Source of the DNA: Bacteroidia bacterium
GTDB taxonomy: Bacteria; Bacteroidota; Bacteroidia; J057
Direction: 5' to 3'
Assembly: GCA_033391075.1 (NCBI GenBank)
Contig: JAWPMV010000003.1
Span: 1-64,000, forward strand
DNA length: 64,000 nucleotides
Of the stretch, positions 45,802-52,756 are shown in pieces. Each line of letters begins with the position of its first letter. Within the stretch, counting starts at the first letter, position 1. The notes under the pieces were generated by a model. It was not told where the DNA came from and did not search any database. It worked only from the letters and a program-made list of their open reading frames with translations. The translations under genes were made by a program, and so were the position numbers.

Positions 45802-47082
45802 TTATTTCAACCTACCCTCATAATAGAGTTTGTCCTCAGACTCAAGACGCAGCGCTCGTACCTCTCCGGTTCCGTGAAATTGATATCGTATTCCTGCAAT
45901 TACTCCCGGATCACGGCTGAGTTTATGTTCGAATACCTTTTCCCCATTCATCCAAACCTCTAGCTGCCTATCCTCCATTTCAATTTCCATTTTTGTCCAC
46001 TGGCTCACATCAAGTCCAAATCCCGAGAGATCAGAGGATGAGCCTTCCATACTTTCTCCCGGTAAATACATCGCTAATTCACCAACACAACCTTTGATAG
46101 AAAAAGGAATAATGATAGGCCCTCGGGAACAAATCAGGTGAAGTCTTCCTTTCTGACAAATCGCCTCTCCCTCTTTCATGCTATGTCGAAATTCCGTTTC
46201 AAAGAGAAAATTACTGGCCGAGAGATCTCCAAAGTCTTTGACGAAATGTAGTTCGGTATAAGGGATGCTTTGGGTCAGGTCAAAACCCGCTTCTACAAGA
46301 TGTTCCCTTCGTATACCCAAAGCAGTCTCACCCAACATCTCCTCTCTTGTCAAATAAACGGGAACCGGATCTTTCTCAATGGTCCCCATCCAACCGTTGG
46401 AGGGAATATGCAGATCTTTTTCTATAACGACTTCCTCATTGAGGATCAGTTTAGCCTGATAGAAACCTGGGTAATAATATGTACTGGCGAAATAGTCCTG
46501 ATCTTTTTCCACTCTATGTCTGAGGCGGGGGTCCCAGGATTGCTGGATGAAAACAGAATCGGCCTGAGAGCGGGCAGCATCATAGCGGAAAATTACCGTA
46601 TTCGGGATACCAGTGGTCAAAGGTTCGAACTCAAAACTAATCCCACTGCTGTCTATCCTGGAAATCCCTGCTTCTTTTTTGGGAGTATCCGGCCAAAGTA
46701 TATAGGAAAGCAGGGCCAAAGACACAACTCCTAAAGCGGGGATCAATAGGCGTTTCAGGGGAATGGATATGGCCTGGATTTCGCCAGACCGTTTTTGTTC
46801 TTTTTTCTTCTCCCCTTCACATTTCTCTAAGTCAATCCAGTTTTTATAACCTATAAACTGAGCCAGGGTATCCAGAGTGTTTGGAGACGGAAGGGAATGA
46901 TACTGTACTTTCCCCCACACCCGCTTCAAGGTCATGGCACTCAGCTGAACCCGGGTTTCTTCCCAGATCCTCTGAGCCAGTTCTTCGAAATGACTATTCC
47001 TCCAGCCGGCAGAATCCGGCCAGTCCATTTTTTGCTCGATCAAAACGAGACAGCGTTTCAGCAATAACTCCTGATCTATCAT
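45802..47082 (-). CDS. Membrane-anchored protein with HTH-like N-terminus and concanavalin-like C-terminus
   Basis: A 426-residue protein. The ATG at 47082 (MIDQELLLKRC) is preferred over one 33 bases upstream. Residues about 32-85 (HFEELAQRIWEETRVQLSAMTLKRVWGK, then NTLDTLAQFIGYKNWIDLE) form a helical domain recurring at N-termini of Bacteroidota proteins and resembling an XRE-like helix-turn-helix. A single membrane helix follows (about 112-131, LLIPALGVVSLALLSYILW), then a beta-rich periplasmic part whose end (MEIEMEDRQLEVWMNGEKVFEHKL) looks like a concanavalin-type fold. A one-component sensor with a cytoplasmic DNA- or protein-binding head is the best guess. Confidence 0.6.
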   Translation of the reverse strand: MIDQELLLKRCLVLIEQKMDWPDSAGWRNSHFEELAQRIWEETRVQLSAMTLKRVWGKVQYHSLPSPNTLDTLAQFIGYKNWIDLEKCEGEKKKEQKRSGEIQAISIPLKRLLIPALGVVSLALLSYILWPDTPKKEAGISRIDSSGISFEFEPLTTGIPNTVIFRYDAARSQADSVFIQQSWDPRLRHRVEKDQDYFASTYYYPGFYQAKLILNEEVVIEKDLHIPSNGWMGTIEKDPVPVYLTREEMLGETALGIRREHLVEAGFDLTQSIPYTELHFVKDFGDLSASNFLFETEFRHSMKEGEAICQKGRLHLICSRGPIIIPFSIKGCVGELAMYLPGESMEGSSSDLSGFGLDVSQWTKMEIEMEDRQLEVWMNGEKVFEHKLSRDPGVIAGIRYQFHGTGEVRALRLESEDKLYYEGRLK

Positions 47083-47158
47083 AACAAATTGAGAGCCTGT
47101 GATACAAAGATACACAAGCCCTCTCGAACCGCCTTATTAAGTCGTAGATTATCCCTTA

Positions 47159-48577
47159 TTATTGAAGATCTGATAGAAGTCCCAGGCTGTATCGGCTTTC
47201 TAATTCTGCTTTGCGGTTCTTCACCAGGATATCCAAATACTTCACCTGCGCTTGTACATAACTACTCTCCCGGGAGTTGACGAGAAAGAGCGAACTTTCC
47301 CCTGCACGAAACATCCTCCGCTCTGCTTCAAGCAAACGCGAGTAGCCCTCTACCCTATCGCGGGCCAGACCACTTTGGCGAAAACTGTTATTGACTTTAT
47401 TGAGGGCAATCTGCGCTTTCGTAGAAATTCCTTCCTGCTTTCCCGAGATATCGTAACGGAGAGACTCCATCTTAAGTCGATTCAGATTGATGGCTGCTCG
47501 TTCCTTTCTCAAAAACAAGGGCATGCTAAAGCTAAAACCCCAGGCATAATTGTTTGTATTGAAATTTGATACCCAGCTGTTCCCGACGGGTTCTGTGAGG
47601 AAATTGTACTTCAAATCGAGTTTGGGTTTCAATTGCTCTCGCTTCAATCTTTGTTCGATCCCCAATTGTTCAAGTTTAAATCTGGATTGAGCTAAATTTG
47701 GATGGAGGTAAGCCAAAGAATCTATTTCTTGGAGAAAACGCTGGTCAGGAAGTATGGCATCTACCTCTGTGTTTGCTAGCGGTATTGTTTCGCTTGCAAG
47801 CTCCAAAGGAATTATCCCATCCCTCCATAGAAAAAGTTCGAGCAGGGTGCGAGCATTTTCCAGTTCCAACAAGGCTTCCTGAGCACTAAGTTGGCGGTTT
47901 TGTACCTGAATTTCTGCTTCCAGTGTATCGATAAAGGCCCGGTCTCCCAGTTCTGCTCCCTGTTGCACTGCCCTCAACCTGACCTCTGCAAGGCTTTGGG
48001 CATCCCGATAAACCTCTAATACATGATAAGCCTTAAACCAGTCCCAATAGGCTTTAGCAGCCTCGTAGAAGACCTGATTGCGAAGTTCGCGTCTTTCCTC
48101 CAGGCTACTTCTCTGTGCGATTTGGGCCTTGCGAAGACTGGCTCTACGTTTATCGATAAATAAGCCTCGCCCTACAGGAAGGGAAACTCCAGCATGGGCC
48201 AAACCTCCATCCGGAACCGTTCGCTCGGGATTTAAAAAGACTCCCTGATTTTGTTCAAATCCTCCATAAAACTCCAGCCCAAACCAGGTGGGTATTTTCA
48301 TCCCTCCTTCAAAGACATCATAATAGGTCTTGCCATCAAAGTTCTTGTTCGCCAGATCTGAAATCAGTTTGGGATCAAAAGCGCCCCTGGCTGCCTTAAC
48401 TCCCTGGCGTCCTTGTTCCGGGAATAGTTCCGCCTGAAGAGACAGGGGATGATGCTCCTCTACGATTTCCATGAAGCTATCAAAGCTCATGACTTTCTTT
48501 TCCTGTCCCAGTATAGGAAGACTCAAGCAAACGGAGAGCAGGATGTATAATAAGAAGACTTTACTCAGCTTCATCAT
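47159..48577 (-). CDS. TolC-family outer-membrane efflux protein
   Basis: A 472-residue exported protein (signal peptide about 1-24, ending ILGQ) with the long helical TolC pattern and internal duplication: EIVEEHHPLSLQAELFPEQGRQGVKAARGAFDPKL, EARNQVFYEAAKAYWDWFKAYHVLEVYRDAQSLAEVRLRAVQQGAELGDRAFIDTLEAEIQVQNRQL, and the second half ending YVQAQVKYLDILVKNRKAELE. It provides the outer-membrane duct. It overlaps the HlyD gene by 4 bases (ATGA) and is the last gene of the export operon. Confidence 0.9.
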   Translation of the reverse strand: MMKLSKVFLLYILLSVCLSLPILGQEKKVMSFDSFMEIVEEHHPLSLQAELFPEQGRQGVKAARGAFDPKLISDLANKNFDGKTYYDVFEGGMKIPTWFGLEFYGGFEQNQGVFLNPERTVPDGGLAHAGVSLPVGRGLFIDKRRASLRKAQIAQRSSLEERRELRNQVFYEAAKAYWDWFKAYHVLEVYRDAQSLAEVRLRAVQQGAELGDRAFIDTLEAEIQVQNRQLSAQEALLELENARTLLELFLWRDGIIPLELASETIPLANTEVDAILPDQRFLQEIDSLAYLHPNLAQSRFKLEQLGIEQRLKREQLKPKLDLKYNFLTEPVGNSWVSNFNTNNYAWGFSFSMPLFLRKERAAINLNRLKMESLRYDISGKQEGISTKAQIALNKVNNSFRQSGLARDRVEGYSRLLEAERRMFRAGESSLFLVNSRESSYVQAQVKYLDILVKNRKAELESRYSLGLLSDLQ

Positions 48578-49941
48578 TTCAGTTTGATCGGTGCTTTAAC
48601 TTTCTCTTTCTTCTTTTTATCGATATCGTAGAAATCCGGTGGAAAATCATTGATCTGACGCCAGAGTTCATACCAAACGGGAACCTCATTTAAGAGGATC
48701 ATACTTTGGGTACCTGCACCAACTCTCAAGGCATTGGGCCAGATGTGTTCATCCTCATCTGGAGCTACCAACACCCGGTACATCCCATTATCGCTGATGA
48801 AATTGTCTATGGCGAATACCTTCCCTCCATAGGTTCCTACACTGGTATTGGGCCAACCGGAGAATACGATGGCTGGCCAGCCGTCAAACATAATTCTGAC
48901 TTTCTGTTCCTTATTGAGTAATGGCAAATCGAGAGGTTTGACATACATCTCTACTGCCAGTTCATATTTGGATGGCATGATGCTCATCATTTCTTCTCCG
49001 GCTTTTACTGTTTCCCCTAATCCTGACTGAATGGCCTTGGTAATAAAGCCATTTTGCGGAGCGGTGATGTAGTATAAACCTTGTCTGACGCTGTAATTTG
49101 CGTACTGATTCTGGAGTTTGCTCAAAGTTGCCTCTGCATCATACTTACCTGAAAGGGCACTAAATTTATCCGATTCTGATTTGGCGATTTTATCCTGGTA
49201 TTGCGCTTCTATGGAGGAAAGTTCCACATGCGCATTTATGACTTCATTACGGCTTCCCAGAACTTTGTTTTCCGCCGAAATCTTCTCTGCCTGTGCCTTC
49301 TGCCATTTCAGTTTGCGACTTTCATACTCTGTCAATGATTTTAAGCCATCTTTGTACAAAGAATCAATACGATCCAGCTGCCTTTGTGCGATTTCCAGAT
49401 TGATGCGCTTAGCCACCAAATCAATACTATCCGTTTTCAATTTAAATTGAGATTGCTGGAACTTGTTTTCAGCTTGCTGCAATTTTAGTCGGGAGGTTTC
49501 TCCCAGAACTTTGATCTGATTGTTCAGGGCGTTTACCTTGCCGTCATAAGAACGGATAGCAGATGCTTTGGCATTTACCTGCTCCTGTGTTCTTTGGAGT
49601 AAATCAGGATCCCAATAGGCATCCTTGATCTCGGAAATAAAGAGAATGGTATCTCCTTTTTCCACAAAATCACCCTCTCTTACATACCAGGCTTCTATCC
49701 TTCCATCAATGATCGAATGAATGGTTTGTGGTCTTTGGTCTGGCATTAAGGTTGTAATGTAGCCATCCGAACGAATATTCTGGGTCCAGGGCAAAAACAT
49801 CAAGCCAAAAAGCAGGATAAAGAAAATCAGAATCAAGCGAATAAGGCCTTTACCCGATTCCCAGTTCTCCACCTGGGAAAGGGCCTCGAACTTATCAAAG
49901 TCGATTTCCTTACTGACACTTTTCGGAGAAATATTCAACAT
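48574..49941 (-). CDS. HlyD-family membrane-fusion protein
   Basis: A 455-residue adaptor with one N-terminal membrane helix (about 37-57, LIRLILIFFILLFGLMFLP), a split lipoyl-like domain (IIDGRIEAWYVREGDFVEKGDTILFIS and, later, YYITAPQNGFITKAIQSGLGETVKAGEEMMSI) and a long coiled coil between (about 115-280). It links the ABC protein to the TolC duct. It begins 2 bases after the ABC gene and overlaps the TolC gene by 4 bases. Confidence 0.9.
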   Translation of the reverse strand: MLNISPKSVSKEIDFDKFEALSQVENWESGKGLIRLILIFFILLFGLMFLPWTQNIRSDGYITTLMPDQRPQTIHSIIDGRIEAWYVREGDFVEKGDTILFISEIKDAYWDPDLLQRTQEQVNAKASAIRSYDGKVNALNNQIKVLGETSRLKLQQAENKFQQSQFKLKTDSIDLVAKRINLEIAQRQLDRIDSLYKDGLKSLTEYESRKLKWQKAQAEKISAENKVLGSRNEVINAHVELSSIEAQYQDKIAKSESDKFSALSGKYDAEATLSKLQNQYANYSVRQGLYYITAPQNGFITKAIQSGLGETVKAGEEMMSIMPSKYELAVEMYVKPLDLPLLNKEQKVRIMFDGWPAIVFSGWPNTSVGTYGGKVFAIDNFISDNGMYRVLVAPDEDEHIWPNALRVGAGTQSMILLNEVPVWYELWRQINDFPPDFYDIDKKKKEKVKAPIKLK

Positions 49942-49943
49942 AA

Positions 49944-51653
49944 TTATACGCTTAATGGTGCTGATTGAGATAAATGATTGTCTGCATTATCGTCCACGAT
50001 TCGTCCATCTTCCATGATGAGGATTCGGTCGAGTTTTTGGGCGAAATAGGGATCAGAGGAAACTGCTATCAGGGTCCATGGATTAACAGGGTCTGTGAGA
50101 AAATCAATGATCTTTTTACGCTCGATGATATCCAGTTGCTCCAGGGCATTTTCCAGGAGCAGGATACGTGGTTTGTGGGCAATACTTCTTGCCAGCAAAA
50201 GTCGTTGGATGATTCCTCTCGAGAGTTTCTTCCCCAGTGGATCAAGCATGCTGTCATAGCCATTGGGTTGAGCGCGTATGAAGCTTTCAAGTCCCATGGC
50301 TTTGGCGGCCCATTGTACATTTTCGAAGCTGGCTGATTCACGACCAATGGCAATATTTTCCAATATGGTCCCTTGAAAAATCTGCTCGTCTGACATATAA
50401 TCACCTGTCAAATCTCTCAGAGAGGTCATGGTTAGATTTCCCTTCGGCAAACCATTGTAGCTGACGCTGCCCGTATTCACATCATACAGACCCGCAATGA
50501 CCTGAAGGAGGGTGCTTTTTCCCGCGCCATTAGGACCGGCAACAAGTACCTTTTCCCCTGGCCCTATTCTCAAGTCCAGATCAGAAAGGGTATTTCGTGG
50601 ATACTCAGGATAAGCAAAGGCCACTTTTTCCAGAGATATTTCAATCCCTCCCTCATCACAGGCATCGAGAAGTTCAATTCCTTCCCTTTTTTCCATATTC
50701 ATATCTGTAACCTGCCCAATCTTTTCCAGAGAGGTTAGCACATCATAAATCGTTTCAAGGCTCATGATCATTTTTTCTACCGAGCCCATGATCAAAAGGA
50801 TGATAATCTCTGCGGCAACGAACTGTCCGATGTTCATCTGTTGTTGCATCACAAGTATGCCACCAATAGCCAGGAGGCCCATTGCCATAAGAACTTTAAA
50901 TGCGATCATCCAGCCAAACTGATTGACGACGATGCGGAAGTGCTTATTTCTTGCCTCCAGATAATTACCTACTTCTTGATCTGTGCGCTCCAGGTGAAGA
51001 TCTGTTCTTCCTGCCAGCTTGAAAGTCATATTCGTTCTGGCGAGTTCTTCCAGCCAGTGAGCCACTTTATATTTATACTTGGATTCATCCAAACTGGTAT
51101 CCAAACCCCTGCGTCCCAGAAAAAGGAAAATAATGTAGACGAGCAGGATCAAGGCTACACTAAAGAGAATAAAGAAGGAGTGATAGAAAGAGAGCAGCAA
51201 GAGTCCAAAGATCAATTGGATGGCTGCGGTAGAAAAATCGATGAGAATTTTTGACATTCCTTTCTGCAAAGAAATAGTATCAAAAAATCGGTTCATCAAT
51301 TCCGGAGCATAGTGCTTGTACAGAGTCTCCATCCGTATACGTGGAACCCGATAGGCAAATTCAAAAGCAGCCCGTGAGAATATCTTTTGTTGCAGGTTCT
51401 CCACGATATACATCTGGTAGATTTGCAAAACACCAGAGAATGCGATACCCAGCAGAACAATACTTACCAAAATTACCCATGAGGAGTTTATCTGTCCGCC
51501 CTGGATCAGGTTTACTATTGCCTGAATACCCAGCGGAAGAGAAAGCCCAATGAGGCCATTGAAAATGGCATAGATATATACATTTCTAATCTCGGTCTTG
51601 TCTGGTTTAAGCATGCGCCAGAAACGCTTGACCGGAGTCAGTGTTGTTGTCAT
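49944..51653 (-). CDS. ABC exporter subunit with degenerate ATPase motifs
   Basis: A 569-residue half-transporter: six hydrophobic segments in about 25-300 and a nucleotide-binding domain in about 336-555, without an N-terminal C39 peptidase domain. Walker A is intact (GPNGAGKST, 373-381), but the other signatures are not: the Q-loop Gln position reads Ser (YMSDEQIF, 419-426), LSGGQ reads LSRGI (477-481), Walker B reads ILLLEN (497-502) where Asp-Glu is expected, and the H-loop His position is Ser533 (VSSDP). It probably still binds ATP, but hydrolysis as a homodimer is doubtful. It heads the ABC/HlyD/TolC set; the small gene at 51756 lies 102 bases upstream. Confidence 0.85.
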   Translation of the reverse strand: MTTTLTPVKRFWRMLKPDKTEIRNVYIYAIFNGLIGLSLPLGIQAIVNLIQGGQINSSWVILVSIVLLGIAFSGVLQIYQMYIVENLQQKIFSRAAFEFAYRVPRIRMETLYKHYAPELMNRFFDTISLQKGMSKILIDFSTAAIQLIFGLLLLSFYHSFFILFSVALILLVYIIFLFLGRRGLDTSLDESKYKYKVAHWLEELARTNMTFKLAGRTDLHLERTDQEVGNYLEARNKHFRIVVNQFGWMIAFKVLMAMGLLAIGGILVMQQQMNIGQFVAAEIIILLIMGSVEKMIMSLETIYDVLTSLEKIGQVTDMNMEKREGIELLDACDEGGIEISLEKVAFAYPEYPRNTLSDLDLRIGPGEKVLVAGPNGAGKSTLLQVIAGLYDVNTGSVSYNGLPKGNLTMTSLRDLTGDYMSDEQIFQGTILENIAIGRESASFENVQWAAKAMGLESFIRAQPNGYDSMLDPLGKKLSRGIIQRLLLARSIAHKPRILLLENALEQLDIIERKKIIDFLTDPVNPWTLIAVSSDPYFAQKLDRILIMEDGRIVDDNADNHLSQSAPLSV

Positions 51654-51755: not shown

Positions 51756-52073
51756 TCAGATACGCTCAGGAGGGGGATCGATACTTATAAGTTCTCGGGC
51801 GGTAAGAGAGAAAAATCGGGTGTACCCATAGGCTGTTTTGGATTGTACAAATTCAGCGCCCATGCCTATGCCCACATACTCCTTTTCCAACTCATTTTCT
51901 TCCTGTTCTTCAGTTTCTTCTTGGGATTCCAGGCTTTCAACTTCTTCTGCCAGATCGGCTGTTAGCTCTGTATTCTGAGCATGAAGTATCCCTGTTCCAT
52001 TCATTCCCAAAATGGAGATGATTAAAAATGAGAGTAAGGAATTCGATAATTTATATAGCATAGAAATTTTCAT
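51756..52073 (-). CDS. Small acidic exported protein in the export operon
   Basis: A 105-residue protein of unknown family. A signal-like N-terminus (LLSFLIISILGMNGTGILHAQ, cleavage near residue 33) precedes a very acidic stretch (EEVESLESQEETEEQEENELEKE) and a C-terminal EYVGIGMGAEFVQSKTAYGYTRFFS that ends IDPPPERI. It lies 8 bases after the TetR gene and 102 bases before the ABC gene, so it is in the same operon. It could be the substrate of the exporter, an accessory periplasmic subunit, or an unrelated passenger; I cannot tell which. Confidence 0.6.
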   Translation of the reverse strand: MKISMLYKLSNSLLSFLIISILGMNGTGILHAQNTELTADLAEEVESLESQEETEEQEENELEKEYVGIGMGAEFVQSKTAYGYTRFFSLTARELISIDPPPERI

Positions 52074-52081
52074 CTCAAAAG

Positions 52082-52756
52082 CTATTTGAGGGCTTTAAAA
52101 ACCATTTCCTTATAAAACTCTGAAATAGAATCTTCCCCTTTAATGGTATCAGTAAGTCGAGGAAGGTGCTCAGCAAAATACCGTTGATGATGAGCTCCTT
52201 CGATTACTGTGGAAACCATCATACGTGGATATTTGAAAGTAGGATCTATTTCCAGGATAATTTCACTTACCCTTAGTACCAATTGCTTATAACCGAGAAA
52301 CATACCTTCCTTATTATCTGCATCTACTTCCTTGGTCAAATAGGCTTTGGAAGATTCGGAAATGATGATTCGATGCAACTTGATTTCATTGATATGGGTA
52401 AAAGCATTGTCTTCCTGTACTTCTTTGGTCAACAAGGCCAGGGCTTTCTTCAAGCGTTCTATGGGTGAATCAATATTGGCCAGGGCAAAGACAAGTTGAT
52501 ACTCCATCCAGGCCCAGTACCATGAGCTCAAGTAAAGCAGTAATTTGTGTTTATTCTCAAAATAGCGGTAAACAGAGGCTTCCGTCGAAGAGATTTCCCG
52601 GGCAAGTTTGCGGAAGGTAAAATCTTCAAATCCCATGGCCTCGATCATCTCAATACTATTGGAAATGATCTTCTGCCCCAACTCACTGGATTCAGGATGC
52701 TTGAGATAAATTTTCTCATGGACCTGAAGGCTGATATTTGAAAGAAGTCTATGCAC
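52082..52756 (-). CDS. TetR-family transcriptional regulator
   Basis: A 224-residue TetR regulator. The helix-turn-helix is at about 30-75: NSIEMIEAMGFEDFTFRKLAREISSTEASVYRYFENKHKLLLYL, with the usual ASVYRYFENKHKLL recognition region. The C-terminal ligand and dimer domain has no family-specific motif I can name. It is the first gene of the unit TetR / small acidic protein / ABC / HlyD / TolC and should control it, probably through the palindrome at 52783-52795, 27 bases upstream of its start. Confidence 0.88.
   Translation of the reverse strand: MHRLLSNISLQVHEKIYLKHPESSELGQKIISNSIEMIEAMGFEDFTFRKLAREISSTEASVYRYFENKHKLLLYLSSWYWAWMEYQLVFALANIDSPIERLKKALALLTKEVQEDNAFTHINEIKLHRIIISESSKAYLTKEVDADNKEGMFLGYKQLVLRVSEIILEIDPTFKYPRMMVSTVIEGAHHQRYFAEHLPRLTDTIKGEDSISEFYKEMVFKALK

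Follow-up and report, generated by a model that had tools for sequence, protein, structure and literature searches.

An ABC-exporter-derived, ATPase-dead inner-membrane component of a putative tripartite exporter in Bacteroidota

Introduction

What can drive an exporter whose ATP-binding domain no longer carries the residues for ATP hydrolysis? This question is raised by a gene in a stretch of 64,000 nucleotides from a Bacteroidia bacterium, referred to here as the window. The initial annotation of this stretch had noticed that the encoded ABC exporter keeps its Walker A motif, while the Q-loop, signature, Walker B and H-loop positions are altered, and it considered such losses hard to explain by error. 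Three ways out were offered, namely gating by ATP binding, powering by an unseen partner subunit, or slow export, and an alignment with homologues as well as a search for a second half-transporter gene were named as checks. The answer given here is that the protein derives from an ABC exporter and forms the inner-membrane part of a putative tripartite exporter, with an ATPase that is dead and, in a nested clade of its family, missing.

The exporter gene and its operon

The exporter is encoded by an intact open reading frame, and both of its halves are recognised above the Pfam cut-offs: PF00664 (ABC_membrane) at 4.7e-11 and PF00005 (ABC_tran) at 5.5e-20. Together with the AlphaFold2 model (pLDDT 88.5) and a fold search, these matches describe an ABC_membrane domain of six helices that continues into an ABC ATP-binding domain. 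Short helices at residues 108-111 and 208-213 of the model are named coupling helices by position only. The membrane domain is the conserved part of the family and carries the motifs 'PELxNRFFDxxxxQK' and 'GQFVAxE'.

The motif positions (Table 1) were set by alignment with eight exporter paralogues from the window's genome and with the best-matching exporters of solved structure. The four altered sites and the intact Walker A had been read correctly by the initial annotation, as had their placement at 50049-50537. The A-loop Tyr is also retained; of the sites that hydrolysis requires, the Q-loop, the signature, the Walker B Glu and the H-loop are not intact. Five signatures were scored for each protein: the Q-loop Gln, the S-x-G of the signature, the Walker B Asp, the catalytic Glu and the His. 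Among the eight paralogues, encoded in a genome of 9.49 Mb, seven keep all five of these and one keeps four.

Table 1. Features of the exporter gene and its operon in the window
Feature	Position	Strand	Basis
TolC-family outer-membrane channel; 4-nt overlap with the HlyD gene	47159..48577	-	profile matches
HlyD-family periplasmic adaptor, directly downstream of the exporter	48574..49941	-	profile matches
Exporter gene, 569 aa: N-terminal membrane domain and C-terminal degenerate ATP-binding domain	49944..51653	-	PF00664, PF00005
Membrane domain, residues 1-325	50679..51653	-	alignments, identity
Degenerate nucleotide-binding domain, residues 338-560	49974..50642	-	Pfam, alignment
Walker A GPNGAGKST, residues 373-381, intact	50511..50537	-	alignment
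Q-loop position: Ser421, not Gln	50391..50393	-	alignment
Signature position: LSRGI (477-481), not LSGGQ	50211..50225	-	alignment
Walker B position: Glu501-Asn502, not Asp-Glu	50148..50153	-	alignment
H-loop position: Ser533, not His	50055..50057	-	alignment
TetR-family regulator, upstream of the exporter	52082..52756	-	profile match

The arrangement of the operon recurs among the relatives. Of 80 relatives' loci, 79 contain an HlyD homologue, and in the remaining one (L128) the contig ends 216 nt downstream of the exporter gene; a TolC homologue is present in 74 and a TetR homologue in 58 of the 80. Beyond these four genes, no neighbour cluster occurs in more than 8 of 140 loci, so that a recurrent substrate gene was not found there. 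The search for a second half-transporter, as proposed in the initial annotation, gave none adjoining the exporter gene in the 80 loci, 48 of which extend for at least 5 kb on both sides. Another ABC-like frame lies 3-6 kb away in four of them; it is of exporter length and on the opposite strand in L078 and L081, and short in L055 and L082.

Two neighbouring frames of the window, both on the minus strand, have no homologue in the 80 relatives' loci. One of 105 aa (51756-52073), between the TetR gene and the exporter, begins, judged by eye, like a signal peptide and is rich in glutamate in its middle. The other, right downstream of TolC (45802-47115), encodes a protein of 437 aa with one hydrophobic stretch, again by eye, and a weak, below-cut-off match to 3-keto-disaccharide hydrolases.

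Loss of the catalytic signatures across the family

The family is widespread in Bacteroidota, the phylum that the genome searches spanned at their widest. In a panel of 60 genomes, made up of the window's genome and its relatives, a close homologue is present in 31, the window's own included. A scan of GTDB species genomes gave at least 579 matching places, and the best 80 of these loci were fetched.

Among 195 full-length Bacteroidia-type rows (191 distinct), none of the five signatures is kept in 115, one in 68, two in 9 and three in 3; no row keeps four or five. Such a pattern goes well beyond chance or error, in agreement with the initial annotation. The initial annotation had stated that canonical residues in the homologues would speak against its reading, and the canonical set is absent across all 195 rows. 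The lost positions are mostly the same, and the replacement residues differ from branch to branch. The Walker A Lys is retained in 187 and an aromatic A-loop residue (Y or F) in 158 of the 195. Walker A is also broken in L042 and L048, and L174 is without a recognisable motif. The counts of degenerate and ATPase-less members exclude L049 and L173, in which a second frame carries part of the ATPase domain, the frameshifted L093, L189, which runs into a contig end, and L234.

The usual pattern of conservation is inverted in this family. When 29 members from the panel of 60 genomes are compared in pairs, identity averages 51.8% in the membrane domain and 33.6% in the ATPase domain, and the membrane domain is the more conserved in 406 of 406 pairs. 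A canonical exporter family of 30 members from the same panel gives averages of 44.4% and 63.1%, with the membrane domain ahead in only 2 of 435 pairs. Over 29 close pairs, the membrane domain has a mean dN/dS of 0.037 and the ATPase domain one of 0.079, the latter being higher in 27 of the 29; these are Nei-Gojobori estimates with dS often above 1, so the values are rough. The ATPase domain is therefore relaxed relative to the membrane part, yet it is not free to decay. As it is under purifying selection and mostly keeps the Walker A Lys, it has some use in the full-length members, perhaps ATP binding.

In several relatives (L036-L044, L178-L185, L217 and others), an N-terminal extension of around 150-260 aa, measured in stop-to-stop frames, precedes the membrane domain and occupies the place of the C39-type domain in HlyB and PCAT. 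A C39-like peptidase was considered for it and rejected, as four scanned extensions gave no Pfam match and the PDB search gave no convincing one, its sole match below 0.01 spanning 43 residues of chain RBL7_C2_3. In L173 (genome G012), the membrane domain and the degenerate ATPase domain lie in two overlapping frames of one operon, which may be a sequencing error or a natural stage toward domain loss.

Relatives without an ATPase domain

A profile of the membrane domain only was run against 395 Bacteroidota genomes and matched at 1e-40 in 97 of them; six of those 97 had frames of just 334-360 aa. Three taxonomic families were also searched, giving matches in 39 of 101, 96 of 101 and 85 of 100 genomes. 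Among the matches listed, a frame of at most 424 aa spanning the membrane domain occurs in 11, 33 and 23 of these genomes, respectively. Apart from those fetched, these 67 genomes are counted by frame length, and the counts omit G484 (a contig-end fragment) and G640 (a split gene).

Altogether, 44 ATPase-less loci from 43 genomes were fetched, and all 44 encode the membrane domain alone, followed by HlyD and TolC. In each of them, the exporter frame stops 1-19 residues past the last membrane-domain position, and homology to HlyD sets in -7 to 119 nt past that stop. Therefore, there is no room in between for an ATPase domain, which takes around 660 nt. The lone membrane domain is under purifying selection (dN/dS 0.03-0.26 in 12 pairs), and for one member AlphaFold2 predicts a complete exporter membrane domain with a pLDDT of 88.3. 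The best Foldseek match of this model is HlyB/D (8dck), and with VIA-align the nearest are TmrAB and HlyB/D (Z 26). SbmA structures are absent among the 50 matches listed for the model by the two programs, an absence that carries no weight. Short helices persist at the coupling-helix positions (113-116 and 213-216).

A relocated ATPase domain was sought with the family's own ATPase profile, and no recognisable copy was found elsewhere in nine ATPase-less genomes. The best match in these was the domain of an ordinary full-length exporter of around 600 aa, at no more than 182 bits, as against 285 bits for the family's own ATPase domain in the control genome G245.

Two genomes, G569 and G601 (loci L303-L307), hold a full-length degenerate copy alongside an ATPase-less copy, of which G601 has two. 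Each of these exporter copies is accompanied by its own HlyD and TolC.

Deep relatives and the order of the losses

Of 28 weaker-scoring matches outside the class in the 395-genome search, 11 were fetched as a deep set. These hold the Walker A Lys, the Walker B Asp and the Walker B Glu in 11 of 11, the His in 8, the S-x-G of the signature in 4 and the Q-loop Gln in none. Hence, the degeneracy that the homologue alignment bears out for the Bacteroidia-type rows does not extend in full to the deep-branching relatives. Two of the latter, L182 and L186, have near-canonical ATPase sites (LSTGE/LSTGQ, D-E and His) without the Q-loop Gln, and their sequences make them candidate cases of continuing ATP turnover that no longer acts on the membrane domain.

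A FastTree tree of 255 rows recovered a single ATPase-less clade (46 rows, support 1.0) nested among the catalytically dead members. This tree lost five of the eight canonical paralogues to poor coverage of the membrane model; therefore, an IQ-TREE tree of the membrane domain (76 rows) was rooted on 20 other canonical exporters, and thinning by identity left 36 of the 195 degenerate rows and 9 of the 49 ATPase-less ones in it. Here, the dead rows group with the ATPase-less ones in a single clade (100/100), inside which the latter make up a clade of their own (100/100), with L217 as its sister (100/97). The deep set is a basal grade in the IQ-TREE tree, whereas FastTree makes it one clade (0.946). 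The four states require three changes on the IQ-TREE tree, which is the minimum, with the caution on this order that the branch joining the canonical outgroup is long (3.79). Our reading is that the Q-loop Gln would have been lost at the outset, along with the signature in most members, then the catalytic Glu and His, and then the domain.

Charged residues of the membrane domain

Several charges distinguish the membrane domain of this family from that of canonical exporters. K131, K135, K194 and E282 are present in all 36 degenerate, all 9 ATPase-less and all 11 deep rows and in none of the 20 canonical ones. R235 and H238 are found in 35-36 of the 36 degenerate, 9 of 9 ATPase-less and 10-11 of the 11 deep rows, and again in none of the 20. 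Position 85 is Glu in the dead and ATPase-less members, while in the deep set it is Glu in 3 and Asp in 8 of 11 rows. E118 and K311 are less telling, the former being acidic in 12 and the latter basic in 15 of the 20 canonical rows. Going by the helix boundaries in the model of the window exporter, the last helix should carry E282 within its membrane part, and the other distinctive charges should fall in the cytoplasmic extensions.

As the deep clade, where ATP hydrolysis may persist, already has most of these charges, they were not gained at the loss of the ATPase; they would be a precondition and not a consequence of it. PMC13316013 says likewise of some glutamates in YddA, the ATPase-bearing relative of SbmA. 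It describes SbmA itself as driven by protons via glutamates that are conserved and include one at the cytoplasmic gate. The charges of the window family may also serve folding.

What drives the export

We are highly confident that ATPase function has been lost in this exporter family. The losses run from near-canonical through dead to deleted, with the membrane part and the operon retained, and therefore this exporter, linked as it is to HlyD and TolC, seems able to do without ATP hydrolysis. Its energy probably comes from a source other than ATP. It is proposed that the family is related to the type I secretion and peptide (HlyB/PCAT/ComA-like) ABC exporters and that its ATPase would have been uncoupled, then catalytically dead and then deleted in one clade, whereas strong selection preserved the membrane domain and the HlyD-TolC operon throughout. 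The Q-loop Gln, as the link between the ATPase and the membrane domain, would have been the first step lost. The membrane-domain dimer would shift its conformation without ATP hydrolysis and pass the substrate on to HlyD-TolC. The drive would most likely be the proton gradient, or the substrate's own, acting above all through K131, K135, K194, R235, H238 and E282, with E85 also among the driving charges in the dead and ATPase-less members. The leftover ATP-binding domain of the window protein would then be a structural or ATP-sensing remnant. As for the substrate, a small molecule or lipid is our guess, since the operon is TetR-linked and stands alone. Taken as a whole, the statement of an ATPase-dead family with proton-coupled or gradient-driven export into HlyD-TolC is what the sequences moderately favour. 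The further proposal, that an ABC exporter has here turned into a secondary-active transporter for a second time and independently, feeding HlyD-TolC and with living intermediates, appears to us evenly balanced.

Alternatively, the full-length members may be gated by ATP binding without hydrolysis, in which case ATP would clamp the domains and open the path, its release would reset them, and the ATPase-less clade would be a later specialisation. The retained Walker A Lys and aromatic A-loop residue fit such a gate, as does the purifying selection on the ATPase domain; in some other exporters, as PMC7756269 reports, ATP stays bound at degenerate sites for minutes and is not hydrolysed. However, Walker A itself is broken in some members, and binding without hydrolysis yields no net energy. 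Because the nested clade lacks the domain altogether, a gate of this kind is not the general mechanism; this proposal of the initial annotation holds as a possibility for full-length members, and as an account of the family we consider it unlikely. Its other suggestion, slow export, would call for slow hydrolysis, which is disfavoured because Glu, Gln, His and signature have gone together.

It could also be that an ATPase or a canonical half-exporter encoded elsewhere drives the membrane domain in trans, and the unseen partner subunit of the initial annotation belongs here. The intracellular loops and invariant residues persist even in ATPase-less members, and the searched genomes (the window's own and ten others) contain many other ABC ATPases. 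The persistence of the coupling-helix positions in the ATPase-less model speaks against an SbmA-like reading and could mean that an ATPase docks in trans. Against this stand the lack of any adjoining partner in the loci read, with the few other ABC-like frames kilobases away, and the low profile scores in the nine ATPase-less genomes, where no relocated domain of the family was detected. Further, the geometry of ABC transporters is such that a canonical half paired with so degenerate a half leaves both composite sites damaged. Since the signature and the Walker B Glu/His are both lost, a heterodimer would hold no intact site. The partner subunit is thus disfavoured, and we rate driving in trans as quite improbable. 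A membrane domain that no longer transports, and serves instead as a scaffold or sensor holding HlyD and TolC in the inner membrane, would suit the facts that the three genes stay together and that no energy source has been identified. Its polar and charged residues are strongly conserved through the helices and cytoplasmic extensions, which is more like a moving transporter than an anchor, and this possibility seems to us very doubtful. A decaying pseudogene, frameshift or assembly artefact might be suspected from the few members that are broken or split (G640, L093, L173). It was rejected on the open frames in nearly every match listed, a dN/dS far below 1 and the spread over at least 579 relatives, usually with one copy per carrier genome, and its probability is close to negligible.

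Significance

No published account of this exporter family was found among the titles and opening abstracts listed in searches of open-licence papers. The conversion of a primary into a secondary transporter has an existing example in SbmA: PMC13316013 infers that it descends from an ABC transporter and speculates on the parting of the ATPase domain. The family described here is recognisable throughout by its membrane domain and operon; as it holds near-canonical, dead and ATPase-free versions, the conversion becomes testable step by step. The findings suggest that many Bacteroidota genes for which automatic annotation would give ABC transporter ATP-binding proteins do not encode ATPases, and they may point to an unrecognised class of tripartite exporter.

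Comparison with known systems

The window operon contains the exporter, HlyD adaptor and TolC channel by which a type I secretion system is recognised, and the partners are of the same kinds as those of HlyB. HlyB/LssB and PCAT/ComA share the membrane fold of the window family: the best fold-search matches of the window exporter model are PCAT1 and TM287/288, and the membrane-domain sequence profile finds ComA at 1.4e-10. None of the 25 NCBIfam matches listed reaches its cut-off; the best, TIGR03375, scores 213 of 693.1 bits, and the type I secretion models TIGR01842 and TIGR01846 score 145.8 of 510.15 and 164.4 of 725.55, respectively. Unlike those exporters, the window family has an ATPase that is dead or absent, no recurrent substrate gene was seen nearby in 140 loci, and its sequences argue against export powered by ATP hydrolysis.

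SbmA/BacA (SLiPT) is likewise an ABC-exporter membrane domain freed from its ATPase domain, as in the nested clade of this family; the window protein itself, by contrast, still has an ATP-binding domain. SbmA is proton-driven, is thought to have evolved from an ABC transporter via loss of the ATPase domain, and has lost its coupling helices, as set out in PMC13316013. The window family, on the other hand, is modelled with short helices at the coupling-helix positions. It is a separate lineage, the window exporter matching PF00664, and SbmA lost its ATPase independently. SbmA_BacA, which we take to be the Pfam name of the SbmA/BacA family, is absent from the window exporter's Pfam matches at E up to 0.001 and up to 1. 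SbmA/BacA are importers, whereas the window family presumably exports, as it is linked to HlyD-TolC, and in this family the evolutionary intermediates survive.

The heterodimeric exporters TM287/288, TmrAB and TAP have a similar fold and keep one working site, which is shared with the second subunit. In such degenerate-site exporters, the Walker B Glu is lost in one subunit, as stated in PMC7756269 and PMC8277102. The window family differs in the loss of all the signatures, and the search for an adjacent subunit found none.

EmrAB-TolC and other proton-driven tripartite pumps consist of an inner-membrane secondary transporter, an adaptor and TolC. If the proton- or gradient-driven reading holds, the layout of the window system would be the same, with an ABC-exporter fold in the place that MFS or RND proteins occupy in those pumps.
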